NCBI GenBank assembly: GCA_945860165.1
Contig: CAMAPL010000023.1
Span: forward strand, 1-35,391
Direction of reading: 5' to 3'
Origin: Rhizobium sp. Q54
GTDB taxonomy: Bacteria > Pseudomonadota > Alphaproteobacteria > Micropepsales > Micropepsaceae
DNA: 35,391 bases
Below the pieces are notes generated by a model that was not told where the DNA came from, ran no database searches, and worked only from the letters and a program-made list of their open reading frames with translations. Shown here one piece after another: positions 1,805 to 32,126 of the stretch; position 1 is the stretch's first letter; every line of letters starts with the position of its first letter. The position numbers and the translations under genes were made by a program.

Positions 1805-3673
1805 TTGCCGAAGATCAACACGCGCATCCGCACAGTGATGGTTGGATTGCTGGGAAGCCTGCTATTCGCCGGCGCCCAGGCCACGCCGCAGGATGACTGG
1901 CCCAATTACGGCCGCGACCCGGGCGGCGCGCGATATTCGCCCCTGACCCAGATCACGCCTGCCAATGTGACCAGTCTGAAGGTGGCGTGGAAATACGACC
2001 TGAAGCCGGCCGGCGCGGCGCGCGACGCGGCCTCCCAGACCACGCCGCTGGTGATCGACGGCGTACTGTATCTCGCTAATCCTTACGGAAAAATCCAGGC
2101 GCTAGACGGCGTGACGGGTAAGGAAATCTGGTCTTACACATTGCCGGACAATCTGCGGCCCAACACGCGCGGCCTGGCCTACTGGCCCGGCGACGGCAAG
2201 GACGATCCGCGGCTGATCTTCGCCACCCCCAACGGCAAGCTGATGGCGGTGAATGCGAAGACCGGCAAGGCCGCCGAAAGCTTCGGCGACAAGGGCGCGG
2301 TCAATCTGCGCACGCCCGAGATCATGCGCGGCTTTGCCGACCGGCCCTATGCCATGAGCTCGGCGCCGCTGATCTACAAGAATCTGGTGATGACCGGCGG
2401 GGCGTTGGGCGAAATCCCCAAGGGGCCGTCCGGCGCGGTGCGCGCCTGGGATGTGCGCACCGGCAAGCTGGTCTGGACCTTCGATGCCGTGCCGAAGAAA
2501 GGCGAACCCGGCTATGACACCTGGGCGCCCGGCTCCACGGAAAATCGCGCCGGCGTCAATGTCTGGGGCCTGATGAATGTCGATGCCGAACGCGGCATCG
2601 CCTATCTGCCCTTCGGCGCGCCCGCGTCGGACCGCTATGGTGGCGACCGCCACGGCACCAACCTGTTCAGCGGCTCGCTGGTGGCGGTCAATGCCGCGAC
2701 CGGCAAGTATCTCTGGCACTTCCAGCTAGTCCATCACGACATCTGGGATCACGACCTGGACACGCCGCCGCTGCTGATGACCGTCCGCAAGAACGGCCGC
2801 AGCATTCCCGCCGTGGCGACCATGACTAAGAGCGCCTATCTCTTCATCCTGGACCGTGTCACCGGCAAGCCGATCTATGACGTGAAAGAAGTGCCGGTCC
2901 CGGCCAGCACCGTGACTGGTGAACAGGCCTGGCCGACCCAGCCCATGCCGGTGAAGCCGCCGCCTTTGGCGCGCCAGCACTTCACGGCGGCGACCGACAT
3001 CGCCACCGTGACGCCCGAGCACAAGGCGTTTTGCGAGAAGCTGATCAAGGACAAGAAGCTGCACGACAGCATCGCCTATTCGCCGCTTACCATGGATTCG
3101 CGGATCGCGCGTTTCCCGGGCAGCGGCGGCGGCCCGGAATGGGGCGGCGGCAGCTTTGACGCCAAGCTCGGCTATTACATAGTTAATACCCATGACATGG
3201 GCAGCATCGAAATGGTCGAAAAGAAAAAGGAAGGCCATTGGGGCTCCGCCGACGGCCCGGACAGCTTCTTCATCGATGAAGACAAGAAGCTGATGTGCCA
3301 GACCCCGCCCTGGGGCACCCTGTATGCGATCAACGTCAATAACGGCGACATCGCCTGGAGCAAGACCTTTGGTGTCACCGACAGCCTGCCGGAAGCGGTG
3401 CGCAACACCGGCCGGCCCAGCATCGGCGGGCCGATCAGCACCGCCAGCGGTCTGACCTTCATTGCCGCCACCGACGACAGCCGTTTCCGCGCCTATGAAA
3501 GCGCCACCGGCAAGGAAGTCTGGACCTACAAGATGGAGTTGTCGGCGCATGCCACGCCGATGACCTATCGCGGCAAGGACGGCAAACAGTATGTGGCGAT
3601 CGTCGCCACCGGCGGATCGTTCATCAGGAGTCCGACAGGTCCGGGCAGCCTGATGGTGTTCGCGCTGCCATAG
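1805..3673 (+). CDS. PQQ-dependent dehydrogenase, eight-bladed propeller, periplasmic
   Basis: The 622-residue protein starts at TTG 1805, five to six bases after GGGAGGGG. This start gives a complete Sec leader (VMVGLLGSLLFAGAQA) and beats the internal ATG in Shine-Dalgarno quality. The mature part opens with DWPNYGRDPGGARYSPLTQI, the standard start of glucose/quinate-type quinoproteins. Propeller repeats of the TGKxxW kind recur throughout. HHDIWDHDLD at 310-319 carries the aspartate that serves as general base in membrane glucose dehydrogenase, and TKSAYLFILDR matches the PQQ-contacting lysine region. There is no CxxCH haem site, unlike the paralogue at 15758-17836. It should oxidise a sugar, polyol or cyclic alcohol in the periplasm and needs an outside electron acceptor. 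It is first in an operon of exported proteins. The substrate cannot be read from sequence. Confidence 0.9.
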   Translation: MPKINTRIRTVMVGLLGSLLFAGAQATPQDDWPNYGRDPGGARYSPLTQITPANVTSLKVAWKYDLKPAGAARDAASQTTPLVIDGVLYLANPYGKIQALDGVTGKEIWSYTLPDNLRPNTRGLAYWPGDGKDDPRLIFATPNGKLMAVNAKTGKAAESFGDKGAVNLRTPEIMRGFADRPYAMSSAPLIYKNLVMTGGALGEIPKGPSGAVRAWDVRTGKLVWTFDAVPKKGEPGYDTWAPGSTENRAGVNVWGLMNVDAERGIAYLPFGAPASDRYGGDRHGTNLFSGSLVAVNAATGKYLWHFQLVHHDIWDHDLDTPPLLMTVRKNGRSIPAVATMTKSAYLFILDRVTGKPIYDVKEVPVPASTVTGEQAWPTQPMPVKPPPLARQHFTAATDIATVTPEHKAFCEKLIKDKKLHDSIAYSPLTMDSRIARFPGSGGGPEWGGGSFDAKLGYYIVNTHDMGSIEMVEKKKEGHWGSADGPDSFFIDEDKKLMCQTPPWGTLYAINVNNGDIAWSKTFGVTDSLPEAVRNTGRPSIGGPISTASGLTFIAATDDSRFRAYESATGKEVWTYKMELSAHATPMTYRGKDGKQYVAIVATGGSFIRSPTGPGSLMVFALP

Positions 3674-3710
3674 CCACAAGAAGCCTTCAAAAAATCAGCA
3701 GGAGAAACAC

Positions 3711-4889
3711 ATGACCGATACCTTCAAGAGCAAACTGTCCCGCCGTGGCTTGTTACAGACATCGGGCGGCGCCTTGCTGGCTGGTGCGGCCGGCTTGCCG
3801 GCAATGGCGCAGCAGGGGCCGAACGCGCCCTATTCGCCCACTCCCAACAAACGCGTTGGCCAGCCGCAGGAAGGCCCCGACACCCCCAAGCTCACTGTCT
3901 ACATGAACGATATGCTGGATGATGCGGAGGCGATCCGCATCAAGCAGCTCGGCATCAACTGGATCGACGCCTCGGCCGTGCCGGCACAGCCTTGGGGCAC
4001 GGATTATCTGCAGCCGCGGGTCGATGCGCTGAAGAAACACGGCATGCATCTCGGTATCCTGATGATCCGCTGGTCCTACCAGGGCGGCCTTGATCCCGAA
4101 ATGAACAAGATCGTGCGTGGCCTGCCGGGCCGTGATGAGGAGATCGGCAAGATCAAGCAGACCATCGTCAACATGGGAAAGCTGGGCATTCCGGTTTTGG
4201 AATGGAATTTCTACACCCACCGTGCCACTGACGGGTACAGGCAGGTGCCCGGCCGCGGTGGCGCCGGCTATTCGGATTTCAACTATGACCGCATGAAGGA
4301 CCTGCCTCCGCTTCCAGCAGACGGTGCGACCCAAAATTATGAAGATACCTGGAAGAACCTGACCTACTTCCTGAAGGAAGTGATTCCGGTGGCAGAAAAA
4401 AACAATGTGGTCATGTCCGTGCATGCCAACGATCCGCCGTCGCCGATGAGCCGCGGTTCGGCTCAGGTCCTCAATAGTTTCTCGGATTGGAAGCGGTTGG
4501 TCGAGACAGTAAATTCGCCCTCCAACACCATGACCTGGGATTGCGGCGTCACCCGCGAGCTGGGCGAGGACCCGGTCGTGGTGGGCAACTGGCTCGCCTC
4601 GCGCAATCGCATCGGCCAGGTGCATTTCCGCAATGTGATCATGCGCAAGCCGCGCTTGGATTATGTCGAAACCTTCCCCGACGATGGCGACATCGACATG
4701 TATGAAGTGATGAAGGTCCTGGTGCGCAACAACTACAAGCGCTTGATCTTCCCCGAGCATCCGCGCGCCATGGATACCGACAAATTGCTTCCGCGGGAGG
4801 CGCAGAGCACCAATTCCGGCTGGGCCTATAATGTGGGCCATTGCCGGGCGATGCTGCAGATCGCCTTGCGTGAACTGCGCGGCATGTAA
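3711..4889 (+). CDS. Tat-exported mannonate dehydratase-like TIM-barrel protein
   Basis: The 392-residue protein begins 37 bases after the PQQ gene with an AGGAG site. LSRRGLLQTSGGALLAG (9-25) is a clear twin-arginine leader, cleaved near AMAQ at about 34. The body resembles UxuA mannonate dehydratase: MSVHANDPP (His238, compare IHPDDPP), WDCGVTRE (Cys278), QVHFRNV (His305) and DGDIDMYEVMKVL near the end. The His/Cys/His set matches metal ligands of that family. UxuA removes water from D-mannonate to give 2-keto-3-deoxygluconate and is normally cytoplasmic, so export is unusual. FPEHP near 358 fits a related xylose-isomerase-like barrel. I infer a sugar-acid dehydratase or isomerase acting on the product of the PQQ dehydrogenase. 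The exact reaction is unproven. Confidence 0.75.
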   Translation: MTDTFKSKLSRRGLLQTSGGALLAGAAGLPAMAQQGPNAPYSPTPNKRVGQPQEGPDTPKLTVYMNDMLDDAEAIRIKQLGINWIDASAVPAQPWGTDYLQPRVDALKKHGMHLGILMIRWSYQGGLDPEMNKIVRGLPGRDEEIGKIKQTIVNMGKLGIPVLEWNFYTHRATDGYRQVPGRGGAGYSDFNYDRMKDLPPLPADGATQNYEDTWKNLTYFLKEVIPVAEKNNVVMSVHANDPPSPMSRGSAQVLNSFSDWKRLVETVNSPSNTMTWDCGVTRELGEDPVVVGNWLASRNRIGQVHFRNVIMRKPRLDYVETFPDDGDIDMYEVMKVLVRNNYKRLIFPEHPRAMDTDKLLPREAQSTNSGWAYNVGHCRAMLQIALRELRGM

Positions 4890-4921
4890 GCATAGACATT
4901 CCAACGCCAAGGAGAAACGAA

Positions 4922-5935
4922 ATGAATCAAGACCGTCGCAGCATGATCACTGGGCTCGGCGCCGGAGCGGCCGCGCTGGCCTCTACAGGGCAAGCCCAGG
5001 CGCAACAGGCGGCGCGCGGCATGCCGACCAACCAGCGCCCGCTGAAAGAGATCGACATCACCAATATCGTCACGGCGAACGGCCTGGGCCTGGGCGTGAA
5101 GACTGCGCGCGGCGTGCTGGACGTCGCCGGTGTGGAGCGGGACCGCAAGATCGGCCTGCCGACCAAGGCTATCGATGTGATCAGTGGCCGTGGCAACCTG
5201 GAGGCCCTGGGCCTGCTGCTGGCCAACGGCGCGGCGGGCGCGCCGGCTGGTCGCCTGATCCCAGAAGGCCAGGTGCGCTTCGGCAACATCGTCGAAAACC
5301 CGGGCAAGATCCTGTGCGTCGGGCTCAACTACGCGGCCCACGCCGCGGAGGGTGGCAGCAAGCCCCCCAAGGAGCCGATCATGTTCAGCAAGTTCAATAG
5401 CGCGTTGAACCACCACAACGGTACCATCCCGGTCAGCAAGTCTACAGCGCCGCCCAAGTGGGACTATGAGGCCGAACTGGTGCTAGTGATGAGCAAGGGA
5501 GGCCGCGATATCCCGGAAGCCAGCGCCCTGGACCATGTCTATGGCTATGCCAGCGGAAACGACTTCACCAACCGCGACCTGCAGCGCCGCTCGGCGCAGT
5601 GGTTGTTGGGCAAGAGCACGGACGGTTCTGGGCCGTTCGGCCCCTGGCTGGTCAGCGCCGATCAGGTGGACGTCAACAACCTCAACATGAAGATGCTCGT
5701 CAACGGCGAGGTCCGCCAGGACACCAATACCCGCCTGATGATCTTCAACTGCGCCCAGATCATCTCCTACTGTTCGAAGGCCTTCGCACTCGAAGTGGGA
5801 GACGTGATTTTCACCGGCACCTGTGAAGGCGTGATCAGCGGATACCCGCCGGATAAGCAGGTCTGGCTCAAACCGGGGGACAAGATGGTGACCTCGATCG
5901 AGAAGATCGGCGACCTCCACGTCACCCTGAGCTAA
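4922..5935 (+). CDS. Exported fumarylacetoacetate hydrolase (FAH) family protein
   Basis: The 337-residue protein has an AAGGAG site eight bases before its ATG. Residues 1-28 (MNQDRRSMITGLGAGAAALA, then QAQAQ) form a Tat-like leader with RRSM. The catalytic domain shows GLNYAAHA (134-141), metal-ligand candidates Glu183 and Glu185 in DYEAEL, Asp214 in GNDFTNRD, Lys231 in LLGKSTDG and GDVIFTGT at 293-300. These are hallmarks of FAH-family hydrolases, decarboxylases and 2-keto-3-deoxy sugar acid hydrolases. The family is normally cytosolic, and export beside an exported UxuA-like protein suggests two consecutive periplasmic steps. A 2-keto-3-deoxy or diketo acid substrate is a reasonable guess. 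Aromatic ring-cleavage products are the main alternative. Confidence 0.85.
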   Translation: MNQDRRSMITGLGAGAAALASTGQAQAQQAARGMPTNQRPLKEIDITNIVTANGLGLGVKTARGVLDVAGVERDRKIGLPTKAIDVISGRGNLEALGLLLANGAAGAPAGRLIPEGQVRFGNIVENPGKILCVGLNYAAHAAEGGSKPPKEPIMFSKFNSALNHHNGTIPVSKSTAPPKWDYEAELVLVMSKGGRDIPEASALDHVYGYASGNDFTNRDLQRRSAQWLLGKSTDGSGPFGPWLVSADQVDVNNLNMKMLVNGEVRQDTNTRLMIFNCAQIISYCSKAFALEVGDVIFTGTCEGVISGYPPDKQVWLKPGDKMVTSIEKIGDLHVTLS

Positions 5936-5954
5936 CCAACCCTTGGGTGAGGCT

Positions 5955-6704
5955 ATGAAAAAAGTCATTGTTCTTTTCTTGTCCGCCTTCCTTGCGCTTA
6001 TGACAGGTGCGCCCGTACTGGCGCAGGCTGAGCGGGCCGATCTTGCCCCCATCCCGACCCACGAGGTGCGTCGCGCCAGAATTGCTCCTCGCATCGATGG
6101 CAACCTCGACGATGCCGCCTGGCAAGCGGCCAAGCCGGTGGTCTTCGTTTTCCCCTGGGCCGATCAGACCGGCAAGAAGCAGAAGACCGTGGCTCGTCTG
6201 ACCTGGGATAACGACAACCTCTATGTCGCCTACGCGTGTGACGATAGCGACATCACTGCGGTGCATACCCAGCCGGATGACCCCACCTACAAAGACGATG
6301 CCGTCGAAATCTTCATTGCTCCGCCTGGCGTCAAGAACCTGTATCTGGGCCTTGAAATGAATGCCCGCGCTGTCTTGTATGACTATCTCTACCCATTTCC
6401 ACAGCGCTTGATAAAAAAGTACGATCTGCGGGGCGTGCAAGTGGCCGTTTCGATCAAGGGCACGCTCAATATTACAGGAGACCAGGACCAGGGTTGGAAC
6501 CTCGAAGTGGCGATTCCCTGGCGCTCGTTTACGGATCTGGCGGATAACCCTGTCCCCAAGATCGGTGACCGCTGGATCGCGAACATGAATCGTTGGGATG
6601 GCACGGAACCCAACCGCCGGCTTTCCCAATGGTCGGATTCGGGCATGTTGAAGCCGAACCCGCATTTTCCGGACCGGTTCGGCCAGCTGTTATTTGTGGA
6701 ATAG
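5955..6704 (+). CDS. Secreted carbohydrate-binding family 9-like protein
   Basis: ATG 5955 is preferred over the upstream TTG at 5943 because GGTGAGG lies just before it and the leader MKKVIVLFLSAFLALMTGAPVLAQ then starts cleanly. The result is 249 residues. The mature part has IAPRIDGNLDDAAWQAA, LTWDNDNLYVAYACDDSDI, DDAVEIFIAPPG, GWNLEVAIPW and FGQLLFVE. These are the landmarks of CBM9-like, DOMON-related beta-sandwiches that bind sugars or haem. It is last in the operon, with a gap of 19 bases after the FAH gene. It may be a periplasmic sugar-binding or electron-transfer accessory for the dehydrogenase and dehydratase. No catalytic residues are evident. Confidence 0.8.
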   Translation: MKKVIVLFLSAFLALMTGAPVLAQAERADLAPIPTHEVRRARIAPRIDGNLDDAAWQAAKPVVFVFPWADQTGKKQKTVARLTWDNDNLYVAYACDDSDITAVHTQPDDPTYKDDAVEIFIAPPGVKNLYLGLEMNARAVLYDYLYPFPQRLIKKYDLRGVQVAVSIKGTLNITGDQDQGWNLEVAIPWRSFTDLADNPVPKIGDRWIANMNRWDGTEPNRRLSQWSDSGMLKPNPHFPDRFGQLLFVE

Positions 6705-6715
6705 CCTTTGGTTGG

Positions 6716-7137
6716 CTAGCCGAAGACTGCGCCCCACATTCCAGCCGCGGCTGGTGGAGAGGAGTAACTTAGAGGCCCGCGAATGTCCGCTTTTGGCAAC
6801 GCAAAGCGGACATGGCACGAACTGCCATCGAGAATTTCGACGGTACGCCAGGTTTCGTCCCGGAAATGATTCACCACTGGCGGGTGGGCGAAGAAATGTC
6901 CGACCACCGCCCGCCACTTGGTGAAATTGTCCGATTGCTTGAAGACAATCGTGTGGTCCTCCAGCGTCTGCCACCACACCACCAGAATGAAACTGTCGGG
7001 CGCCTCGATGCCCTGGCGCATTTCCAATTTGTGGAAGCCCTTTGACATCTCGATGAATTGCCACCCTCAGCGAAAGCAGCCCGGAACTGTTCGGCCTGGC
7101 CGGGGTAAATGGAAAAGACAGCGGTCTCAAGGATCAT
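6716..7137 (-). pseudogene. Frameshifted antibiotic-biosynthesis-monooxygenase (ABM) domain gene
   Basis: The ATG at 7137 overlaps the stop of the MFS gene in an ATGA. It begins MILETAVFSIYPGQAEQFRAAF, the usual start of small ABM ferredoxin-like-fold proteins. After about 26 codons the frame is lost, and the rest (FIEMSKGFHKLEMRQGI, SFILVVWWQTLEDHT, HFFAHPPVVNHF) continues one frame over, so one base is missing near 7050-7060. The second part also runs about 40 codons past the normal family end, through a hairpin at 6784-6812, suggesting the 3' end is altered too. Family members are oxygenases or unknown accessory enzymes. It is a pseudogene or a sequencing error. Confidence 0.7.
6784..6812. 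repeat. Perfect 10-bp inverted repeat between convergent genes
   Basis: TGTCCGCTTT (6784-6793) and AAAGCGGACA (6803-6812) are perfect inverted arms around a nine-base loop. The hairpin lies about 80 bases after the CBM9-like stop and inside the overlong tail of the ABM pseudogene. It lacks a long T-run on either strand. It may be a bidirectional transcription-stop hairpin or a copy of a short dispersed palindromic repeat. Confidence 0.5.
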
Positions 7138-8426
7138 GTCTGCTTTCCTTGCGGCGCATCCCATTTCAGGCGCATCAGGACAAAGCTGAGCGCCGCCGAG
7201 ATCGCGGCGCAACCCGCCATCAGATAGAGGCCGGACGAGAAATCCGTGCCGCCGCCGCGTGCGGTGGCGCCGACGATAAAGGGCCCCAAAAATCCGCCCA
7301 GATTGCCCACCGCATTGATGGCGGCGATGCCGGCTGCCGCGGCCATGCCGCTCAGCATCAACGGCGGTAGCGACCAGAACACCACGGCCTGCGCGTAAAG
7401 GCCGATGGCGGCGATAGAAATCACCACCAGCGCCCAGACCGATGCGCCGAGAAAGGCGCTCAAGGCAAGGCCCGCCGCGGCGACCAGCATGGCGATGATG
7501 GTGTGCCAGTGCCGTTCATTGTGCCGGTCGGAATGCCAGCCCCACACCACCGCCCCGGTCGCGGCGACCAGGAAGGGAATGGTGGCGGCAAAGCCGACCT
7601 GGGTGTTGGAAAGTCCCGCGCCGCTGAGGATCAGCGGCAGGAACAGGCTGACGCCATACATCGCCATGTTGCGGGTGAGGTAGATCGCCGACAGCAATCC
7701 GGCGCGCCGGTTCATGATGGCGCCAAGCTGCGCCAGCACGCCGCCATGCTGACCCCGCCCGCCCTCGACCTGCCGCTCCAGCCAGGTGCACTCCTCCGCC
7801 GTCAGCCAGCGCGCATCACGCGGCCGGTCGGGCAGATTGCGCAGGACATAAAATCCCAGCAGCACCGCCGGGACCGCTTCGACGACGAACATCATTTGCC
7901 AGCCCGTCAGGCCCAAGGCGCCGTTCAGGGCGAGCAGCGGTACCGACAGCATGCCTGCCACCGCATTGCCCATGGGCGCGGCAAAGAAGAACACCGCCGT
8001 GGCGCGGGCGCGATAGCCAGCGGGAAACCAGTAGGTGATGTAGAGCACCAGGCCGGGCACGAAGCCCGCTTCGGCAGCGCCCAGCAGGAACCGCACCGCC
8101 AGGAAACTGTTATGCCCCACCACCAGCGCCATCATGCCCGATATCAGGCCCCAGGTGATCATGATGCGCGCGATCCAGCGGCGCGCGCCGACCCGTTCCA
8201 GGATCAGGTTGCTGGGAATTTCAAAGGCGAAATAGGCGATGAAGAAAATGCCTGCGCCCCAGGCATAATCCATTACCGTCAGGCCCAGGTCGCGATTCAT
8301 GGTGAGCGCGGCAAAGCTCACATTGACTCGGTCCAGCTGGTTGATCAGGAACATCAGGGCCATCAGCGGCGGCAGCCGCCACATGACCTTGCGCATGGTG
8401 CGCCGTTCCAGCTCGGCATCCGTCAT
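7134..8426 (-). CDS. MFS transporter, anion:cation symporter (ACS) type
   Basis: The 430-residue polytopic inner-membrane protein has about 12 hydrophobic segments. Family motifs include LINQLDRVNVSFAALTMNRDLGL near the start, GIFFIAYFAFEIPSNLILERVGARRWIARIMITWG, RFLLGAAEAGFVPGLVLYITYWFPAGYRARA and a cytoplasmic loop with NLPDRPRDARWLTAEE. These are standard for ACS carriers of organic acids such as tartrate, galactarate/glucarate, phthalate or hydroxyphenylacetate. The start has no strong Shine-Dalgarno site and lies 11 bases after the upstream dehydrogenase stop, so coupling is likely. Its own stop overlaps the ABM gene start by four bases. Substrate inferred: an acid handled by the neighbouring lactonase-like and GarR-like enzymes. 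Confidence 0.9.
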   Translation of the reverse strand: MTDAELERRTMRKVMWRLPPLMALMFLINQLDRVNVSFAALTMNRDLGLTVMDYAWGAGIFFIAYFAFEIPSNLILERVGARRWIARIMITWGLISGMMALVVGHNSFLAVRFLLGAAEAGFVPGLVLYITYWFPAGYRARATAVFFFAAPMGNAVAGMLSVPLLALNGALGLTGWQMMFVVEAVPAVLLGFYVLRNLPDRPRDARWLTAEECTWLERQVEGGRGQHGGVLAQLGAIMNRRAGLLSAIYLTRNMAMYGVSLFLPLILSGAGLSNTQVGFAATIPFLVAATGAVVWGWHSDRHNERHWHTIIAMLVAAAGLALSAFLGASVWALVVISIAAIGLYAQAVVFWSLPPLMLSGMAAAAGIAAINAVGNLGGFLGPFIVGATARGGGTDFSSGLYLMAGCAAISAALSFVLMRLKWDAPQGKQT

Positions 8427-8437: not shown

Positions 8438-9316
8438 TCAGGATTTTGGCTTTTCGTACAGCCGCGCCACGGCAGCGCCGTCCACCATCTCATTGTCGGC
8501 GGCGAAGGCGTGATAACGCTCGACCGCGCGGCTCAGCAGCGGCAGTTCCAGATTGTGCGCTTTCACAAAGGCCATGACATTCTTCAGGTCCTTGTCCAGC
8601 TGGCGGGCATAGCTGCGCGGGGGTACGTAATCGCGCGATTGCTGTTGGGGATAGATGCGCCGCAGCACGGTGCTGTCGGCCATGCCGCCGGCCAGCGCCC
8701 CGGGAAGGCGCGCCGCGTCTATGCCGGCCGCTTCCGCCAGCGCCAGGGTTTCGCCCATCAGCACATAGCCGACGCCGACAATTGCCTGGTTGATGATCTT
8801 GGCGGTCTGGCCCGCGCCCAGCGCGCCGATATGGGTGAGGTTGGCGGCCAAATCCGTCAGCACGGTGCTCGCCCGCGCCACATCGTCGTCCGCGCCGCCC
8901 ATCATGATGGTGAGATGGCCGTCGTCCGCCGCCACCGGTCCGCCCGAAATCGGCGCATCCACCCAGGCCATGCCAGTTTCGCGTTTCAGGCGCTCGGCAA
9001 GCGCAAGCGTGGTGTCGGGATTGATGGTGGACGTATCTATCAGAAGCGTCGCGCCCGATGCGGCGCGCGCCATGCCGTGCGGCCCAAAGCAGCATTGCTC
9101 CACCGCTTCGCCGTGCAGCACGCAGAAGATCACGATATCGCTGGCGGCCCGCACTGCGGCCGGGCTGTCCAGCACGGTGGCTCCCGGCACTTCGGCATAG
9201 CGGTCGGCTTCCAGATTCCACACCGCTACCGGCCAGCCCTGCGCCATCAACCGGCGCACCATCGGCGCACCCATGATGCCGATGCCGACAAAGCCGATCC
9301 GGGGACGCGCGGTCAC
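8438..9316 (-). CDS. GarR/3-hydroxyisobutyrate-type NAD(P)-dependent dehydrogenase
   Basis: The frame is open far upstream, but the real start is GTG 9316, which overlaps the amidohydrolase stop in a GTGA. This gives 292 residues. A Rossmann motif GIGIMG (11-16) comes first, the substrate signature DAPISGGP lies at 120-127, and GAGQTAKIINQ holds the catalytic lysine at about 173 with Asn177. The C-terminal helical domain is complete, and total length is normal for the beta-hydroxyacid dehydrogenase family (tartronate semialdehyde reductase, 3-hydroxyisobutyrate dehydrogenase). It likely reduces or oxidises a small hydroxy-acid or semialdehyde from sugar-acid breakdown in the cytosol. The exact substrate is unknown. 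Confidence 0.88.
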   Translation of the reverse strand: MTARPRIGFVGIGIMGAPMVRRLMAQGWPVAVWNLEADRYAEVPGATVLDSPAAVRAASDIVIFCVLHGEAVEQCCFGPHGMARAASGATLLIDTSTINPDTTLALAERLKRETGMAWVDAPISGGPVAADDGHLTIMMGGADDDVARASTVLTDLAANLTHIGALGAGQTAKIINQAIVGVGYVLMGETLALAEAAGIDAARLPGALAGGMADSTVLRRIYPQQQSRDYVPPRSYARQLDKDLKNVMAFVKAHNLELPLLSRAVERYHAFAADNEMVDGAAVARLYEKPKS

Positions 9317-10248
9317 GGCTTTGTTCCTTGGCTGAGGCGATAGATGCGCCTGGCGTTGTCGGCGAACAGTTTGCGCTGCACGGCAGTCCCCATTGTTCTT
9401 GTTGCTTCTGCAAAGCCGGAAAAGATGGTCGCCATGCTGCCGGCCAGGCCGTCCACCGGGAAGTTGCTGGCGAACATGCAGCGATCCTCTCCGAAGATTT
9501 TGATCGTGTCCAGAATGACCTGCTGGTTGCGCTCCAGGGTCCAGGGCTGGCCTGGTTCTCCCAGTCCGGAAATCTTGACGCAGACATTGGGCGCCGCCGC
9601 AAACAGTTTCATCGCCCGCCGCCAGCCTGCCAGTTCTTCCGCGCTGCGGTTTCGCGGCAGGCCGGTATGATTGAGGATGATGGGAATGCGGGGAAAGTCT
9701 GCGTTCAATCTGGCGCCGTCCTCCAGATGCCACCAGGGTGTCTGCAGGTCGAAGGAAAGATTGTATGTCTCCAGCAAGGCATAGCCGCGTCGCCAGGTCG
9801 GATCGTTCATCGAGCCGGGAACACCTTTTTCGATCCTGTCCGGCGCCGGCGCCGCTGCGGGCTTGTGCCGTATGCTCCGCACCAGCGCAAAGCGGGCCTG
9901 CTGGGCGAGGATATCGGCGGCGTCGGAGCGGTGCAGCGTGACATGGCACACCATGGCGGAGGGCAGGCCCGCCTGCTGCGCCAGATCGTGGACCCAGCGC
10001 GTTTCGCCGACAGAATCGGTACGGTCCCATTCGGTTTCGACAAAGACCGAACCCTCCAGCTTCATGCCAGCGGCATCGCGGCGGTAATCCGGCGGCATGT
10101 AGTTGCGCTTCAAGGCGCTGTAATCGCCATAGCGGAAAGGGATGGGGGGCTGATCGCGCAGCCAGGGAAGGTGATTCTTCTCCAGGTCCCAGAAATGCTG
10201 GTGGGCGTCGATAACAGGAATATCGGCCGGAAAACCGGGAAGGGTCAT
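9313..10248 (-). CDS. Amidohydrolase-family lactonase-like enzyme (COG3618)
   Basis: The 311-residue protein has no signal peptide. The first strand carries VIDAHQHFWD with metal-binding His16 and His18, followed by PWL. Later landmarks are GSVFVETEWD, LNHTGLPR (His), VCVKISGLG and RCMFASNFPVDG with the active-site Asp. This order fits the COG3618 TIM-barrel group, which includes L-fucono- and L-rhamnono-lactonases and 4-sulfomuconolactone hydrolase. It heads a minus-strand operon and overlaps the next gene by four bases. A sugar lactone made by a PQQ dehydrogenase is an attractive substrate, but a muconolactone-like aromatic intermediate cannot be excluded. Confidence 0.85.
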   Translation of the reverse strand: MTLPGFPADIPVIDAHQHFWDLEKNHLPWLRDQPPIPFRYGDYSALKRNYMPPDYRRDAAGMKLEGSVFVETEWDRTDSVGETRWVHDLAQQAGLPSAMVCHVTLHRSDAADILAQQARFALVRSIRHKPAAAPAPDRIEKGVPGSMNDPTWRRGYALLETYNLSFDLQTPWWHLEDGARLNADFPRIPIILNHTGLPRNRSAEELAGWRRAMKLFAAAPNVCVKISGLGEPGQPWTLERNQQVILDTIKIFGEDRCMFASNFPVDGLAGSMATIFSGFAEATRTMGTAVQRKLFADNARRIYRLSQGTKP

Positions 10249-10353: not shown

Positions 10354-12462
10354 ATGAGTACCGGTAAGCACCGCATCGCCATTGATGTCGGGGGCACATT
10401 CACCGATCTGGTCGTATCCAATTCCGACGGTTCCGCCCGAACCCTCAAGCTTCTGTCCACCCCGGACGATTACAGCCGGGCGATTGTCGATGGCCTGGCC
10501 CGGCTTTTCTCCGACGGCACGACCGACCCCAAGGCAGTTGTCAGCCTGGTGCATGCCTTTACCGTGGCGACCAACGCGCTTCTGACCGGGCATGGCGCCA
10601 AGGTGGCGCTGATCACCACCCGGGGCTTTCGCGACATTCTGGAAATCGCGCGCCTTCGGATGCCCCAGCTTTACAACATGGACTGGGACAAGCCGCGCCC
10701 GCTGGTGCCGCGCCGCCTGCGCTTTGAGATCGAGGAGCGGATGGATGCGGACGGCAAGGTGGTCCTGCCGCTGGATGCCGCCAGTGTGATCGCGGCGGTG
10801 GAGAAAATGCGCAAGCAGGAGGTCGACTCCGTCGCGGTGTGCCTGCTGCACTCTTATATAAACCCGGCGCATGAGCAGGCGGTGATGGAATTGCTGCGCC
10901 AGCATGCGCCCGAACTTTCCATTTCCGCTTCGCACCAGGTGCTGCCGGAAATCCGCGAATATGAACGCACCAGCACCACGGTGGTGAACGCCTTTGTGAA
11001 ACCGGTGGTCGACCGCTATCTCGCCTCGGTGGAAAACGGCGTCAAGCGGCTTGGCGTCAATGCGCCCCTGATGGTGATGCAGTCGTCGGGCGGCATCATC
11101 ACGGCCGATACCGCGCGCGCCTTTCCCGCCTATTGCGTGGAATCGGGACCGGCCGCCGGCGCCATCGGCGCAGCGGCGTTAGGCGAGATGCTGGGCGAAG
11201 CCAATATCATCGCCTTCGACATGGGTGGCACCACCGCCAAGGCCTGTTTGATCGAGGGCGGCGAACCCCGCCTGACTGATGAAATGGAAGTGGGCGCGGG
11301 CATCAATATCGGTCAGCGGCTGCTGGGCGGCGGTGGCTATCTGGTGCGCTCGCCCACCATCGACCTGGCCGAGATCGGCGCCGGCGGCGGCAGCCTCGCC
11401 TGGATCGACAAGGGCGGGGCCTTGCGTGTCGGCCCCGACAGTGCGGGCGCTGATCCGGGTCCGGCTTGCTATGGCCGGGGCGGCACGCGCCCGACCGTGA
11501 CCGACGCCAATGTCATTCTGGGCTTCTTGAATCCATCGCATCTGCTGGACGGCGACATGCCGATCGACAAAATGTGCGCCGAAGACGCCATCCGCATCCA
11601 TGTCGCGCAGCCGCTGGGCCTGTCCTTGCACGAAGCCGCCTACGGCATTCATGCCGTGGTCAATGGCGCCATGACGCGGGCGATCCAGGCGGTGTCGAGC
11701 GAGATCGGCCGCAGCCCACGCGAATTCGCCATGGTGGCGTTCGGCGGCAATGGCGCGGTGCATGGCGCCACCTTGGCGGCCCATGCCGGGATTTCCGACA
11801 TTATTATACCGCCGGCTTCCGGCGTGTTCAGCGCGTTGGGCTTGTTATTTGCATGTATCCAGCATCGGCTGGTGGCAGTTTTCTGGCATGACGTGGACAA
11901 GGTAGATTGCGAGGCGCTCAACGCGCGTGCCCGCCAGCTTCTCCATGACGCGTCCGAAATGATGACGGCCGAAGGCGTGCCGACTGCCCATACCGAACTG
12001 CATCTGGTGCTGGAGATGCGCTATGCCGGCCAGAGTTCCGAACTTGGCATTCCCATCGCATCGCCCATAGTGACTCGCCAGATTCTCGATGAGGTGACCG
12101 AGCAGTTCCACCAGGAGCATGAGCGCACTTACGGCTATTGCAGCCGGACGGAACGGGTGCAGATTGTAAACCTGCGCCTGCGGGCCCGCAGCATGGACCG
12201 GCAGGACCATCTGCCGGCGCCGTCCGCGCTCAGAACCCAAAAGGCGAATGGCGCTTCGCCCAGCTCGTCGGAACGCCCGGTCTATTTTGGCGACAAGGGC
12301 TGGGTGACGACACCGGTGATCCGCCGAACCGCCCTGAACGAACAACCCCGCCAGGGGCCGCTGATCGTCGAGGAATATGACACGACCATCATCGTGCCGC
12401 CGGACGCGTCGGCCCGCGCGATTGCCGGAACTGTTCGCATCCGGCTGGATCAGGCAGAATAG
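10354..12462 (+). CDS. hyuA: Hydantoinase A / acetone carboxylase beta-type ATPase subunit
   Basis: The 702-residue protein opens with RIAIDVGGTFTDLVV (7-21), the phosphate-binding motif of the ASKHA-fold HyuA/OplA family. Next come the typical TVATNALL, LITTRGFRDILEIAR and VCLLHSYINPAHE. A second ATPase motif, NIIAFDMGGTTAKACLIEGG, lies at about 285-304, and AFGGNGAVHG follows near 467. Length is normal. These subunits use ATP to activate a carbonyl or amide: N-methylhydantoin, 5-oxoproline, acetone, acetophenone or caprolactam in known members. Together with the next gene it forms the two-subunit enzyme. A GGGGGA site lies 11 bases before the ATG. The substrate cannot be told; the link to a D-threonine-aldolase-like gene suggests a nitrogen-containing compound. 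Confidence 0.9.
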   Translation: MSTGKHRIAIDVGGTFTDLVVSNSDGSARTLKLLSTPDDYSRAIVDGLARLFSDGTTDPKAVVSLVHAFTVATNALLTGHGAKVALITTRGFRDILEIARLRMPQLYNMDWDKPRPLVPRRLRFEIEERMDADGKVVLPLDAASVIAAVEKMRKQEVDSVAVCLLHSYINPAHEQAVMELLRQHAPELSISASHQVLPEIREYERTSTTVVNAFVKPVVDRYLASVENGVKRLGVNAPLMVMQSSGGIITADTARAFPAYCVESGPAAGAIGAAALGEMLGEANIIAFDMGGTTAKACLIEGGEPRLTDEMEVGAGINIGQRLLGGGGYLVRSPTIDLAEIGAGGGSLAWIDKGGALRVGPDSAGADPGPACYGRGGTRPTVTDANVILGFLNPSHLLDGDMPIDKMCAEDAIRIHVAQPLGLSLHEAAYGIHAVVNGAMTRAIQAVSSEIGRSPREFAMVAFGGNGAVHGATLAAHAGISDIIIPPASGVFSALGLLFACIQHRLVAVFWHDVDKVDCEALNARARQLLHDASEMMTAEGVPTAHTELHLVLEMRYAGQSSELGIPIASPIVTRQILDEVTEQFHQEHERTYGYCSRTERVQIVNLRLRARSMDRQDHLPAPSALRTQKANGASPSSSERPVYFGDKGWVTTPVIRRTALNEQPRQGPLIVEEYDTTIIVPPDASARAIAGTVRIRLDQAE

Positions 12463-12466
12463 ACCC

Positions 12467-14197
12467 ATGAAACCCGATCCGATCCGCCTCGAACTGATGA
12501 AAAACGCCTTCGCGGCGATTGCCGATGAAATGGCGGCGACCGTGGTGCGTACCGCGCGTTCCTCGGTGATCAAGGAGGCGATGGATTTCTCCACCGGACT
12601 TTTGGACCCTGGTGGCAATTTGGTCGCACAGGGGCTTTGCCTGCCGGTCCATATGGGGTCGTTCCCGCCGACCCTGGCGACGGTGCTGAAGAAGTTCGAC
12701 GGGCAGATCCGGCCCGGCGATGTCTATGCGCTGAACGATCCCTATCTCGGCAGCGGCTTGCACCTGCCAGATATCTTTGTCTTCAAGCCTATATTTTTCG
12801 AAGACAAGCTTCTGGCCTTTGCGGCAGCGATCGGTCACCAGACCGACATCGGCGGACGTGTCGCCGGCGGCAATGCCTGCGACAATACCGAGATATTCCA
12901 GGAAGGGTTGCGCATACCGCCGTTGCGCGTGATCGATCAGGGAAAACCGGTCGACGCCTTTTTCGACATTCTGCGGCTGAATGTGCGGGTGCCGGAAACG
13001 GTGATCGGCGACGTCAATGCCACCATCGCTGCCTGCACGCGCGGCGAGCGCGCTTTGATCGCGCTGGCCAAAAAGCATGGCGCCGAGGCCCTCGTCAGCG
13101 ACATGGCCAACCTGCTGGATTATTCCGAGGCGGTGACGCGCTCGGAGTTTGCCGCCTTTCCAGACGGCACCTGGGAGTTCGAGGATTTCCTGGACGATGA
13201 TGGCTTCAGCGAGGACCCGATCCGGATTTTAGCCCGCATCATCAAAAAGGGCAGCGATATCACGGTAGATTTCACCGGCACATCGCCCCAGGTGAAAGGC
13301 TCGATCAACCTCCCCATCGCCATGACGCAGTCCAGCGTCTTTGCCTGCCTGCGGTCGGTAATCGATCCGAACCTGCCGACCAATTCCGGCTTCATGCGAC
13401 CGATCCATGTCATTGCCGAACCCGGCTCCATCGTTCATCCGATTTCGCCCGCTCCCGTCGCGGCGCGCGGCCTTACCTCCATGCGCGTGACCGAAGCGGT
13501 GTGGGGCGCGCTGGCCCAGATGCTGCCCCATAAAGTGTTCGCCTGCGGCGCGCAGGGCGATTTCGGCGTCACCATCGCCGGGTACCGCGCCGAGCAGCGG
13601 CCCTTTGTGCTGCTGGAATTTCTGTTCGGTACCTGGGGCGGGCGTCCCAACAAGGACGCCATCGACGCCCTGTCATCGCTAGCGGTGAATTATTCCAACA
13701 CGCCGGTCGAAGTCGTGGAGCGTGAGCAGCCGATCCGCATCGAGGAATATGCCATGCGCCAGGATTCCTGCGGCGCAGGAAAATTCCGTGGTGGCATGGG
13801 GTTGGTGCGGGAGTATCAGTTAACCGGCGTGGACGAGGCGGTGCTGCAGGTCCGCAGCGACCGCCAGAAATTCCAGCCCTTTGGGTTGAAGGGCGGTAAT
13901 CCTGGCGCCAATGCCGCCAATCGCCTGCGCGAGGCGGACGGCAAGGAAATCGCATTGCCGGGAAAATTCATGCGCACTTTCAAGCGCGGCGAACGCTATC
14001 GCGCCCAGCTGGCGGGCGGTGGCGGCTGGGGCGATGCCTTTGCCCGCGCTCCCGACATGGTCTGGCAGGATGTGCTGGACGAAAAAGTCTCGCGCGACAG
14101 CGCGGCACGGGACTATGGCGTGGTGATCGGCGCTGACGGCGTACTGGATGCCCTGGGGACGGAGCGCCTGCGGTCGGCGCGCCGCGCCGCCGAATGA
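12467..14197 (+). CDS. hyuB: Hydantoinase B / acetone carboxylase alpha-type subunit
   Basis: The frame opens upstream, but ATG 12467, four bases after the hyuA stop, gives the family N-terminus PIRLELMKNAFAAIADEMAATVVRTA. The 576-residue protein shows FSTGLLDPGGNLVAQG, PGDVYALNDPYLGSGLHLPDI, GHQTDIGGRVAGG, ITVDFTGTSPQVKGSIN, NSGFMRPIHV and GAGKFRGGMGLVREY in the expected order. Length is slightly above the usual 520-560 residues. It is the partner of HyuA in an ATP-dependent hydrolase or carboxylase. Its stop overlaps the next start in ATGA, so the three products are probably made in balance. No third small subunit of acetone carboxylase type is present, favouring the hydantoinase/oxoprolinase-like branch. 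Confidence 0.9.
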   Translation: MKPDPIRLELMKNAFAAIADEMAATVVRTARSSVIKEAMDFSTGLLDPGGNLVAQGLCLPVHMGSFPPTLATVLKKFDGQIRPGDVYALNDPYLGSGLHLPDIFVFKPIFFEDKLLAFAAAIGHQTDIGGRVAGGNACDNTEIFQEGLRIPPLRVIDQGKPVDAFFDILRLNVRVPETVIGDVNATIAACTRGERALIALAKKHGAEALVSDMANLLDYSEAVTRSEFAAFPDGTWEFEDFLDDDGFSEDPIRILARIIKKGSDITVDFTGTSPQVKGSINLPIAMTQSSVFACLRSVIDPNLPTNSGFMRPIHVIAEPGSIVHPISPAPVAARGLTSMRVTEAVWGALAQMLPHKVFACGAQGDFGVTIAGYRAEQRPFVLLEFLFGTWGGRPNKDAIDALSSLAVNYSNTPVEVVEREQPIRIEEYAMRQDSCGAGKFRGGMGLVREYQLTGVDEAVLQVRSDRQKFQPFGLKGGNPGANAANRLREADGKEIALPGKFMRTFKRGERYRAQLAGGGGWGDAFARAPDMVWQDVLDEKVSRDSAARDYGVVIGADGVLDALGTERLRSARRAAE

Positions 14198-15276
14198 GCA
14201 CGCCTAAATCTGAACTTGATACGCCAGCGCTGCTGGTCGATCTCGACGTGATGGAAGCCAATATCGCCCATGTCGCGGCAGCCTGCCGGGCGCAGGGTGT
14301 TGCCTGGCGGCCGCATGTCAAAAGTCACAAGACGGTTGAGATCGCGCAGCTACAGATCGCCGCCGGCGCCATTGGCGTCACCTGCGCCAAGCTGGGGGAG
14401 GCGGAAGTCCTGGCGGCAGCGGGCATCCACGACATTTTGATCGCCAACCAGATCGTCGGCCCCATCAAGATGCGCCGCCTGATGGCGCTGCCGCGCGAAG
14501 TAGATGTGATCGTGTCGGTCGACAGTGCGCATAATGTCGCGGAACTGGCGGATGCCGCCAAGGCCGCCGGCAGAAAGCTTCGTGTCGTGATAGAGGTCAA
14601 TACCGGTATGGACCGTGCCGGGGTCGAGCCGGGTGTGCCGGCGGTGGCGCTGGCCGCTATCATCGCTAAGTATCCTTCGTTGCGTCTTGTCGGGGTGATG
14701 GGCTGGGAAGCGCATGTCACGGCCATACAAGATCCAACCATAAAAGCTGAAGCCGTCGCCGACGCCGTCGCACTTCTGACCGATAGTGCTGAGGCTTGCC
14801 GTGAAGCGGGGCATGACATGTCCATCGTCAGCTGCGGCGGCACCGGCACACTGCTGTATTGCGTTAGTCAGCCAGGCGTCACGGAAGTGCAGGTGGGCGG
14901 CGCCATCTTTAACGATGAGCATTACCGCACTCACTACAGTATCGAACTACCTTGTGCCCTGACGGTGCTGACCACCGTCATCAGCCGCCCCAACCCGACG
15001 CGCGTGATCCTGGATGCCGGCCGCAAGGCGATGAGCAACGACATGGCTCTGCCGCGGCCGCTGATCTTGCCCGATATTTCATCGGTGAAATTGTCGGCCG
15101 AGCATGCCCAGATCGAACTGAGCGCGCCCAGTGATACTCCCAAAATCGGAGACAAGATCGAACTGGTCGTTGGCTATAGCGATACCACCATCCACCTGCA
15201 TGAAGAGATGGTTGCCTTGCGTGGCGGCATCGTCGAAGCGGTGTGGAAGGTGGCGGGACGCGGCAAGATCAAATGA
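14194..15276 (+). CDS. D-threonine aldolase / D-serine dehydratase-like PLP enzyme
   Basis: The 360-residue protein of the fold-type III, alanine-racemase-like family begins LDTPALLVDLDVMEANI. It carries the PLP-lysine motif RPHVKSHKT with Lys43. GVTCAKLGEAEVL, EVNTGMDRAGVEPG, VSCGGTGT and QVGGAIFNDEHY follow. Known members cleave D-threonine and other D-beta-hydroxy amino acids or dehydrate D-serine, using PLP and a divalent metal. In the C-terminal metal motif (commonly HxDPTVNLHD or HxC) this protein reads GYSDTTIHLH, so the usual His is Tyr328 while Asp330 is kept. That may alter metal use or reaction. It overlaps both neighbours by four bases, which ties it to the HyuAB reaction. Confidence 0.85.
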   Translation: MSTPKSELDTPALLVDLDVMEANIAHVAAACRAQGVAWRPHVKSHKTVEIAQLQIAAGAIGVTCAKLGEAEVLAAAGIHDILIANQIVGPIKMRRLMALPREVDVIVSVDSAHNVAELADAAKAAGRKLRVVIEVNTGMDRAGVEPGVPAVALAAIIAKYPSLRLVGVMGWEAHVTAIQDPTIKAEAVADAVALLTDSAEACREAGHDMSIVSCGGTGTLLYCVSQPGVTEVQVGGAIFNDEHYRTHYSIELPCALTVLTTVISRPNPTRVILDAGRKAMSNDMALPRPLILPDISSVKLSAEHAQIELSAPSDTPKIGDKIELVVGYSDTTIHLHEEMVALRGGIVEAVWKVAGRGKIK

Positions 15277-22652: not shown

Positions 22653-23551
22653 CTAGCCCGCCTTACGGATCACGGCCGCGGCGGCGAAATCGAGTTGCTG
22701 GGCTTCCGTCAGGAGCGCCTGTACCAGTCGGATGCGCGGGTTGCCGCGGCGCCACAGCACGCCGACGCGCCGCTCCTGGGACGACAGGTGGAGGCAGATC
22801 TTCCGCAAGTTTAAGTCCTTCGGGCCAGGGCGGCGCCCAGTCCGGCACAAGCGACACGCCCAGCTGGCAGTCGACCAGCACAGCGATGGTATCCAGCGAC
22901 CGATTTCATAGCGGTCCCGCACGGTCAGGTCGTTTTGCTGCAGGCAATCCTCGCCCAGCCGTCCGCCCCACTGCTTGGGGTCGTAGCGGATGAAGGGCTG
23001 GCTTGCCAGGATGGCATGGGGATCGCGCTCGGTGATGCCGCGATGGGCCAGCACGATCAGCAGTTCGGCCCGCCAGGTGACCCAGTCGCAGGTCTTGGGC
23101 ATCGAGAATTGTGGCTCGATGATCACGGCGGCGTGCAGATCTCCGCTGATGATCTTGGCATAGAGGTCGTTGGACGAGCCCGGGTACACGAACAGCGTCA
23201 TGAGGGGGTATTTTTCTGTCAGGGTCGACAGGATTGGTGGCAGCAGGCCGGTGAGTGCGCTGGACATCGCCCCCAGGTTCAGCTTGCCAGCAAAGTTTTC
23301 TCGTTGGCGATGTTGCGCAGGTCGCGCACCCCCGCGAGCAGCGCCTGGACCTGGGGCAGGATCGAGCAGCCCGCTTCGGTGGGACGCGCGGTGCGCCCCG
23401 AACGCGATGTCAGCGCCATGCCCAGCTCCTGCTCCATGGCTTTGTTTCGCTGCGTGACGCCAGCAGGCGTGAGATTAAGTCGGCGCGCGGCTTGCGCCAC
23501 CAAACCGTGCTCGACCACCAGCAAAAAGCTTTCAAGAAATTGCGTATCCAT
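22653..23551 (-). pseudogene. LysR-family regulator gene with three apparent frameshifts
   Basis: The start at 23551 gives MDTQFLESFLLVVEHGLVAQAARRLNLTPAGVTQRNKAMEQELG, a normal LysR winged helix-turn-helix. Near 23285-23300 the frame is lost (NEKTLLAS stop, where AGKLNLGAMSSALTGLLPP continues one frame over). A second shift comes near 22900, with IAVLVDCQLGVSLVPDWAPPWPEG in another frame. A third lies between about 22745 and 22815, returning to RRVGVLWRRGNPRIRLVQALL. The pieces make a full-length effector-binding domain when joined. The first two shifts each look like one missing base. It is divergent from the DapA-family gene, whose activator it probably was. It is inactive as read unless the assembly is wrong. 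Confidence 0.85.
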
Positions 23552-25658: not shown

Positions 25659-25782
25659 ACCCGGCCTCGCCAGGGACGATCGTTGCCGGGGCGCGATTCC
25701 CGCAGCCCCCGAAACATAGTATATTTATTCGCGCTAATCTGAGCATGCACGGGGTAACTGTGCCGAAGACTTCTGGAGCTCC

Positions 25783-25872
25783 ATGCAATTGTTCCGGGTT
25801 TTCTTTTGGGCACTTGCCATCCCGCTGCTATTGGCGGGCGGTCCGGTTTGTGTCCAAGCGCCTGCCGCCTAG
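25783..25872 (+). pseudogene. Orphan signal-peptide stub
   Basis: ATG 25783 opens 29 codons encoding MQLFRVFFWALAIPLLLAGG and VCVQAPAA, a convincing signal peptide, and then meets TAG at 25870-25872. The same frame runs 13 more codons to a TAA that falls in the end of the convergent PdxA-family gene. No mature domain exists. It is best read as the 5' remnant of an exported-protein gene whose body was deleted. The surrounding 25659-25906 gap otherwise holds a GC-rich imperfect hairpin near 25686-25712 and an AT-rich stretch near 25715-25738. Confidence 0.4.
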
Positions 25873-25906
25873 CAGCCTGCCACCGCGTATCGCAAGTTGC
25901 CGGGCG

Positions 25907-29015: not shown

Positions 29016-29016
29016 C

Positions 29017-29976: not shown

Positions 29977-29991
29977 GACAATCCTCCAACC

Positions 29992-30006
29992 GCCCCGTTT
30001 CGGGGC
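29992..30006 (-). promoter_or_regulatory. Hairpin just before the isomerase ribosome-binding site
   Basis: GCCCCG-AAA-CGGGGC forms a tight six-pair stem (symmetrical on both strands) only a few bases before GGAGG of the isomerase gene. It lies in the 74-base gap after the sorbosone-dehydrogenase-like gene. There is no T-run, so it is more likely to affect mRNA stability or translation than to terminate. Evidence is structural only. Confidence 0.3.
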
Positions 30007-30050
30007 TTGTGGCGGGATTTCAGACTATCGGGAGAAGGGACGCAACCGGC

Positions 30051-31343: not shown

Positions 31344-31377
31344 TGAGACATATCCGGGGGTGGGATTACGGAAGCGC

Positions 31378-31441
31378 TCCAATAGCAGCGTTGGTTCCGG
31401 ATTGGGACCGGAACCAACGTCGCACTCCGCGCGCTATTGGA
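31378..31441. promoter_or_regulatory. Nested perfect inverted repeats in divergent intergenic region
   Basis: The inner arms CGTTGGTTCCGG (31389-31400) and CCGGAACCAACG (31408-31419) pair perfectly over 12 bases around a seven-base loop. The outer arms TCCAATAGC (31378-31386) and GCTATTGGA (31433-31441) also pair perfectly over nine bases. The structure sits between the divergent sorbosone-dehydrogenase-like gene and a small ORF. It could be a double operator, a cruciform, a transcript hairpin, or a palindromic mobile repeat. No regulator for it is seen in the window. Confidence 0.6.
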
Positions 31442-31472
31442 TCTAAGAACAGTCTCATGACAGGAGTGTAAG

Positions 31473-32118: not shown

Positions 32119-32126
32119 GCCAAAAG

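Follow-up and report, generated by a model that had tools for sequence, protein, structure and literature searches.

Periplasmic breakdown of quinate in Acinetobacter baylyi proceeds through QuiA, QuiB, and QuiC, which perform an oxidation dependent on pyrroloquinoline quinone (PQQ) followed by 2 dehydrations (PMC4213383). We analyzed a stretch of 35,391 nucleotides (hereafter the window), which is contig C23 of the genome G000 of an uncultured bacterium (2.48 Mb, 42 contigs, given as 100% complete) and carries a cluster of genes for a PQQ dehydrogenase, a UxuA-like enzyme, an FAH-family enzyme, and a CBM9-like protein. Comparison of this cluster with the quinate pathway revealed that (i) the window dehydrogenase is likewise in the PQQ glucose/quinate/shikimate group; (ii) the quinate dehydrogenase is followed by non-redox periplasmic enzymes and the product is taken up (PMC4213383), an arrangement that the window cluster would share; and (iii) the enzymes after the first step belong to other families, and a Pfam scan of 19 window proteins (an apparent HyuB, 2 apparent cupins, a TonB-type receptor, the frame 22653-23267, and others were outside it) turned up neither a dehydroquinate nor a dehydroshikimate dehydratase domain. 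The working principle of the cluster may be that of periplasmic quinate breakdown, carried out by different enzyme families. The initial annotation did not know oxidation, dehydration, and hydrolysis of a sugar acid outside the cytoplasm as a described pathway; this claim is weakened by the quinate precedent, in which PQQ oxidation precedes 2 periplasmic dehydrations (PMC4213383).

The UxuA-like protein can be compared with 2 groups of enzymes. It shares with the D-mannonate dehydratase UxuA (TIGR00695, PF03786; 3ban, 4eac, and 1tz9) the fold, the PF03786 domain, 2 ligand His residues, and the catalytic His. It differs in that it has a twin-arginine translocation (Tat) leader, falls below the equivalog cut-off, has Asp instead of Cys and Glu instead of Asp at the metal site, and lacks an insertion present in the UxuA rows of the alignment; its identity to 2 related UxuAs is 25–26%. 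With the 3-keto-glycoside β-eliminases AtOGE and CGE, it shares a TIM barrel with His-Asp-His-Glu on strands 5 to 8; in AtOGE these residues are the metal ligands, and the catalytic His134 lies 2 residues past the ligand His132 (PMC10628242). In contrast to AtOGE, the window protein has a UxuA-type sequence and an export leader, and a quinoprotein adjoins it, whereas the Agrobacterium tumefaciens operon of AtOGE contains oxidoreductases (PMC10628242).

Cluster composition and predicted export

The 4 genes are consecutive on the plus strand, with gaps of 37, 32, and 19 bp, and their products begin with predicted Sec, Tat, Tat-like, and Sec signals, in agreement with the initial annotation. The core of the cluster is the PQQ dehydrogenase and the UxuA-like enzyme; the FAH and the CBM9-like protein are less constant. 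A fixed four-gene operon was rejected, because CBM9 and FAH genes were sporadic among the loci compared. All 4 proteins exceeded the Pfam cut-offs (PQQ, 622.5 bits; UxuA, 125.2 bits against a gathering score of 23.7; FAA_hydrolase, 206.9 bits; CBM9_1, 57.4 bits). In NCBIfam, the first 3 proteins matched below cut-off only, and the CBM9-like protein had no match.

The UxuA-like leader consists of SRRGLLQ, a long uncharged stretch, and the ending AMAQQ, and the FAH leader has a less canonical Tat motif, DRRSMIT, and ends in AQAQQ. The N-termini of the PQQ dehydrogenase and the CBM9-like protein are, by eye, ordinary Sec-type signals; in the latter, the ATG at 5955 gives a cleaner Sec-type signal, also by eye, than the TTG at 5943 chosen in the initial annotation. 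A home-made, loose Tat filter, which includes an Ala-X-Ala pattern, flagged 2 of the 23 called open reading frames of the window, exactly the UxuA-like and FAH proteins, and 29 of the 251 called frames outside these 2 families in the window and the other loci, several of which are probable true Tat proteins. Of the family members themselves, it passed 15 of 19 (UxuA-like) and 6 of 10 (FAH); those that it missed were truncated or masked, had a wrong start, or lacked a leader or the Ala-X-Ala pattern. Conservation of the leaders is stronger evidence for export than this filter. A twin Arg with a hydrophobic stretch is present in all 18 readable UxuA-like family members (19 aligned; L012 is cut by a contig end), and the RR is invariant in all 8 FAHs aligned, 3 of them only 42–43% identical (L095, with a masked leader, was excluded). 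Relatives of the UxuA-like protein outside the genus (29–34% identical) mostly lack a leader of this kind (L032, L117, L120, L121, L122, L125, and L126); the N-terminus of L119 is ambiguous, and those of L118 and L127 (overlong frames) and L124 (cut) could not be read for this purpose. TatC, the sole Tat component searched, is present in the genome. The twin-Arg motif, the hydrophobic region, their conservation, and TatC mark both proteins as predicted Tat substrates. The leaders noticed in the initial annotation, on enzymes whose best-known relatives work in the cytosol, are thereby borne out at the level of sequence, and the sequences speak against a cytosolic location of the 2 enzymes, which it had named as an outcome that would overturn its proposal.

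The PQQ dehydrogenase gene starts with TTG behind GGAGGGG, and both are identical in L004, L005, and L076. The protein reached 454.9 bits with TIGR03074 (cut-off 832.65), and the match began at model position 150, the N-terminal membrane domain being absent. Its D315 and K342 align with D466 and K493 of Escherichia coli Gcd, which we take to be the catalytic Asp and Lys, and a gap lies opposite Gcd His262, the role of which we likewise assume. Directly upstream of the start, a degenerate IS3-type transposase frame (by eye; minus strand, 1050-1800), interrupted by stop codons, comes to its end. In L004, L005, and L076, this place is occupied by a DUF2189-type gene; therefore, insertion of the transposase probably displaced the original upstream region.

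The best PDB relative of the FAH is 8gsr, L-2,4-diketo-3-deoxyrhamnonate hydrolase (E 1e-43); the score with the corresponding equivalog model NF053535 (2,4-diketo-3-deoxy-L-rhamnonate hydrolase) was 187.6 against a cut-off of 500. The FAA_hydrolase core and the probable active-site residues are shared with the hydrolases 8gsr and 8sky. The window FAH differs by its Tat-like leader and by an extended N-terminal part, residue 104 of the query lying opposite residue 52 of 8gsr. The residues H140, E143, E183, E185, D214, and K231 are invariant in the 8 FAHs aligned and presumably form a His-Glu dyad, the Glu/Glu/Asp metal site, and the Lys. The FAHs of L106 (8780-9802) and L107 (6088-7116), from another alphaproteobacterial family, have the canonical Tat leaders TRRNFLK and TRRDFLK and adjoin a run resembling SUF iron–sulfur genes, and those of a second Tat-tagged group (L092, L093, and L094; 42–43% identical) adjoin a small protein and an ApbE-resembling gene, all these neighbors being named by sequence appearance only. 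The PQQ dehydrogenase, UxuA-like, and FAH trio as the unique holder of an exported FAH was rejected, since canonical Tat-leader FAHs occur in that other family (G084 and G216). No PDB match was found for the CBM9-like protein. An 81% identical relative lies about 3 kb from the FAH in L008 (contig C13 of G055), its sole reappearance among the loci compared; none was found in L004 or L005.

Recurrence of the pairing and other partners

The genome comparison covered 120 relatives, and adjacency was counted for the 17 UxuA-like copies that share at least 69% identity with the window protein; those of 43 to 56% provided context only. The 17 copies lie in 16 genomes, all of the window's genus. When 385 genomes were sampled evenly across the class, matches of at least 69% occurred only in G000 and G030, which are members of this genus, and the matches listed outside the genus were at most 34% identical. 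Of the 17 copies, 7 have the closest PQQ dehydrogenase no more than 1 kb away, in 2 arrangements, namely, on the same strand as the UxuA-like gene in G000, G039, G035, and G041 and convergent with it in G012, G015, and G008 (about 0.9 kb away in G008). The genomes of 12 copies were searched for the pairing, and the other 5 copies (G047, G055 twice, G056, and G068) were covered by tblastn on locus stretches; tblastn over all stretches around the UxuA-like copies returned the same 7 pairings. This conserved link to a periplasmic PQQ dehydrogenase supports part of the interpretation given in the initial annotation. Genes with a strong PQQ domain match number about 21 in the window's genome (pieces of one frame counted once), so a single chance neighbor would be unsurprising; the same orthologous PQQ neighbor in 2 arrangements would be rare by chance, with related genomes not counting as independent. 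One further PQQ dehydrogenase gene of this genome (G000:C3:144975-146749) is broken by a stop codon and is perhaps a pseudogene. An exported FAH of at least 90% identity was found in 5 of the 120 genomes; it lies beside or near the UxuA-like gene in 4 of them (G000, G039, G035, and G055, in the last at a distance of about 1.1 kb).

Other UxuA-like genes have other partners. In 5 genomes (L007, L011, L012, L086, and L088), an enolase-superfamily gene is its tail-to-tail neighbor (Table 1). The L012 protein, which starts with MDRRKFFGAAMAS, was searched against PDB and NCBIfam and assigned to the ManD family on the basis of 3t6c (E 3.4e-130) and NF043051 (403.3 bits, under the cut-off of 550); the other 4 were grouped with it by similarity. 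The ManD family is of the sugar-acid dehydratase class, and no ManD is among the window proteins scanned. A Tat-like leader was found in 4 of these 5 proteins, by the filter in L007, L012, and L088 and by a leader search in L011 (G036:C15). Four of the 5 loci also have an ordinary-type UxuA-family gene close by, and the one in L007 adjoins the exported UxuA-like gene and passes both UxuA cut-offs (411.2 and 501 bits). With these ManD neighbors, most of them predicted to be Tat-tagged, sugar-acid chemistry outside the cytoplasm gains a plausibility that the window by itself would not give it.

In L079, L089, and L091, a Tat-tagged UxuA-like gene is part of, or close to, a methylamine-dehydrogenase-type group, with the cofactor tryptophan tryptophylquinone (TTQ), and a DUF4432 gene. 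Pfam identified the TTQ chains of L079, and similarity those of the other 2 loci, whose UxuA-like proteins belong to a second clade and share 56% and 53% identity with the window protein. A 49–50% identical paralog in the window's genome (L002) has genes for an alpha/beta hydrolase and a ThuA-domain protein as neighbors. Judging from these leaders and neighbors, the lineage seems to export several sugar-acid-type enzymes beside periplasmic quinoproteins.

Predicted metal site of the UxuA-like protein and possible reactions

Alignment with E. coli UxuA placed H238, D277, H305, and E349 of the window protein opposite H233, C271, H298, and D351, that is to say, the His-Cys-His-Asp set is changed at 2 positions, from Cys to Asp and from Asp to Glu. 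We take His-Cys-His-Asp to be the metal ligands of UxuA, after the Streptococcus suis ManD structure, and the next His to be catalytic. His-Asp-His-Glu is present in all 19 UxuA-like family members aligned; H238, H305, and H350 are kept, and H350, which aligns with E. coli UxuA H352, is conserved in every row. There is no Tyr in the window protein where Tyr325 of S. suis ManD, presumably its catalytic residue, aligns, the C-terminal alignment being uncertain there. The protein scored below both NCBIfam UxuA cut-offs (80.6 against 199.55 and 98.9 against 191). On account of these scores and the altered ligands, the label of a mannonate-type dehydratase is unsupported, and the assignment of the second gene as a mannonate dehydratase was rejected. 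A strict rule linking export to the change from Cys to Asp was also rejected, because a distant Tat-tagged paralog in the window's own genome (L003; 25–27% identical; leader DRRKFFS) keeps His-Cys-His-Asp.

An AlphaFold2 model built from 21 sequences had a mean pLDDT of 77.4, with low confidence in the leader, and placed the predicted metal residues at, or directly after, strand ends. Its best structural match was UxuA 3ban (Z 34.2, rmsd 2.6 over 313 residues), followed by xylose-isomerase-like isomerases and epimerases (Z 24.1 and below). Given the AtOGE-type ligand set and the changed UxuA site, we infer that enolization of a carbonyl sugar is likelier than classic mannonate dehydration.

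The explanation that we favor, as plausible but short of probable, is that the cluster is a small extracytoplasmic catabolic module, in which a quinoprotein is joined by an exported metal enzyme acting on its carbonyl product, with the FAH downstream; part of a sugar-breakdown route may thus run outside the cell interior. In the periplasm, a sugar or sugar acid would be oxidized at an alcohol group by the PQQ dehydrogenase. The carbonyl compound so formed would be enolized by the UxuA-like enzyme, with His350 and a divalent metal on His-Asp-His-Glu, and the outcome could be isomerization, epimerization, or β-elimination of water or another leaving group. The FAH would hydrolyze or dehydrate the keto acid formed, the CBM9-like protein may bind the substrate, and a transporter of the major facilitator superfamily (MFS) would import a small product for the neighboring reductase and lactonase-type enzymes in the cytosol. 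The sequences show the cluster anatomy, the export signals, the PQQ/UxuA-like pairing, and the residue changes, whereas the substrate, order, and products of this scheme are inferred. The export signals and the PQQ link favor the sugar-acid pathway outside the cytoplasm that the initial annotation suggested, and its sequence of oxidation, dehydration, and hydrolysis is unsupported.

Several observations weigh against such a module. The full trio was seen complete only in G000, G039, and G035 and is unsupported as a fixed unit. Near the other 10 of the 17 UxuA-like copies, tblastn of the surrounding stretches found no PQQ dehydrogenase match above 35% identity; the stretch is short for 4 copies (3.2 to 8.0 kb), and because the other 6 span 12 to 20 kb, the absence is real for most unpaired copies. 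The FAH genes of G041 are on contigs other than that of its UxuA-like gene, and since Tat-tagged FAHs occur in G063, G065, G067, G084, and G216, which have no UxuA-like match among those listed, the FAH may serve another route. Furthermore, no PqqE or PqqC over cut-off was found in the window's genome, so that PQQ would be needed from outside if the enzymes work. Neither was found over cut-off in the 7 genomes with the pairing, and among the 42 genus members searched, PqqE over cut-off occurred in 3 (G003, G005, and G040) and PqqC in 2 (G003 and G040), the PqqC match of G005 being partial and interrupted. PQQ scavenging is reported to be common in Gram-negative bacteria, but most Alphaproteobacteria are said to lack the importer PqqU and are taken to be mainly PQQ producers (PMC12124388). 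With many PQQ enzymes and no recognized PQQ synthesis, the present lineage looks to depart from that picture.

Among the alternatives, a 3-keto-glycoside route, in which the quinoprotein oxidizes a glycoside ring, the UxuA-like protein β-eliminates as AtOGE does, and the FAH acts later or is unrelated, appears unlikely. The ligand set equals that of AtOGE (PMC10628242), the fold matches the xylose-isomerase-like superfamily, the L002 ThuA-domain protein has a signal-like start, and in L081 a GMC oxidoreductase and a gluconate-2-dehydrogenase subunit 3 protein lie a few genes from the UxuA-like gene. Nevertheless, the counterpart of the catalytic His134 of AtOGE is Asn240, the closest structures are UxuAs (Z 34.2, with the next family at 24.1), and no GMC domain is present among the window proteins scanned. 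We know of no PQQ protein that oxidizes C3 of glycosides.

We likewise doubt the route of the initial annotation itself, in which the UxuA-like protein dehydrates an aldonate in the periplasm and the FAH processes the 2-keto-3-deoxy acid. The UxuA fold with PF03786 and the kept His350, the ManD-family dehydratases beside 5 related copies, the relation of the FAH to L-2,4-diketo-3-deoxyrhamnonate hydrolase, and the adjoining sugar-acid-type transporter and dehydrogenase agree with it, but the scores below the UxuA cut-offs, the 2 ligand changes, and the lack of an apparent counterpart of Tyr325 (in a poorly aligned C-terminal region) do not, and in L007, where a cut-off-passing UxuA adjoins the exported protein, the mannonate role is already filled.

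Co-export of enzymes that share a neighborhood and an export route and no common pathway is more improbable still: it would account for the sporadic FAH and CBM9 genes and for Tat-tagged FAHs that elsewhere adjoin unrelated-looking genes, such as the SUF-like run of L106 and L107, but not for the PQQ dehydrogenase and the UxuA-like gene occurring together in 2 arrangements and 7 copies. That the leaders are non-functional and both enzymes cytosolic, as the non-canonical FAH motif and the loose filter might suggest, is very improbable in view of the RR and hydrophobic region in all readable UxuA-like members and aligned FAHs, which relatives outside the genus mostly lack.

Surrounding genes and wider meaning

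Downstream of the cluster, the MFS transporter gene (Table 1) is a possible uptake partner; relatives of 92% and 84% identity are found downstream in L004 and L005. The region 10354-15276 encodes hydantoinase/oxoprolinase A (by Pfam), an apparent B subunit (outside the Pfam scan), and then a pyridoxal-phosphate enzyme nearest to the 3-hydroxy-D-aspartate aldolase BhcC (264.5 bits, under the cut-off of 690). Possible further acid-sugar genes lie at 23785-33416, where a DHDPS-family aldolase, a PdxA-like dehydrogenase, a Gfo/Idh/MocA protein, a xylose-isomerase-like TIM barrel, and 2 GSDH-type proteins were recognized. A 416-residue frame with cytochrome c domains is on the minus strand at 26905-28155.

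Table 1. Positions of the cluster, its neighbors, and the ManD-family partners (window coordinates unless a locus is named).
Feature	Position	Strand	Matches and remarks
PQQ-dependent dehydrogenase (glucose/quinate/shikimate type) lacking the N-terminal membrane domain; signal MPKINTRIRTVMVGLLGSLLFAGAQA, Sec-type by eye	1805..3673	+	PF01011, TIGR03074
UxuA-clan TIM barrel with Tat leader; His238-Asp277-His305-Glu349 as predicted metal site, His350 conserved	3711..4889	+	PF03786
FAH-family enzyme, Tat-like leader MNQDRRSMITGLGAGAAALASTGQAQAQ	4922..5935	+	PF01557
CBM9-like exported protein (Sec-type), occasional cluster member	5955..6704	+	PF06452
MFS transporter, nearest D-galactonate/HpaX types	7134..8426	-	TIGR00893, 276.4 bits, under cut-off 395
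β-Hydroxyacid dehydrogenase (tartronate-semialdehyde reductase/3-hydroxyisobutyrate dehydrogenase type), no leader noted	8438..9322	-	PF03446, PF14833; NF008592, 189.4 < 397
Amidohydrolase-2, sugar-lactonase-like, no leader noted	9313..10248	-	PF04909, 148.7; NF052480 fuconolactonase, 96.1 < 400
ManD-family gene	L007:4914-6386		tail to tail with UxuA-like
ManD-family gene	L011:4939-6834		tail to tail with UxuA-like
ManD-family gene	L012:1146-2549		tail to tail with UxuA-like
ManD-family gene	L086:3712-5358		tail to tail with UxuA-like
ManD-family gene	L088:11262-12665		tail to tail with UxuA-like

A broader possibility, about which we are rather doubtful, is that the genus has moved ordinarily cytosolic sugar-acid enzymes (UxuA-like, ManD-like, and FAH) to the periplasm by means of Tat leaders and uses them as interchangeable modules behind 2 kinds of quinoprotein, PQQ alcohol dehydrogenases and a TTQ amine dehydrogenase; as most members would make no PQQ, the route would operate only on cofactor from neighboring organisms. 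Among the papers listed in literature searches, none dealt with an exported FAH, UxuA, or ManD enzyme, judging by title or start of abstract, which does not prove that none exists. Periplasmic sugar oxidation is usually thought to end after 1 or 2 redox steps, with the keto acids then imported. If exported isomerase or dehydratase and C–C hydrolase steps follow there, the periplasm hosts carbon-skeleton chemistry too. The labels mannonate dehydratase and FAH would then mislead on the place of the reaction and probably on the reaction itself, and the cluster would provide a testable enzyme set for a lineage that seemingly depends on the PQQ of others.

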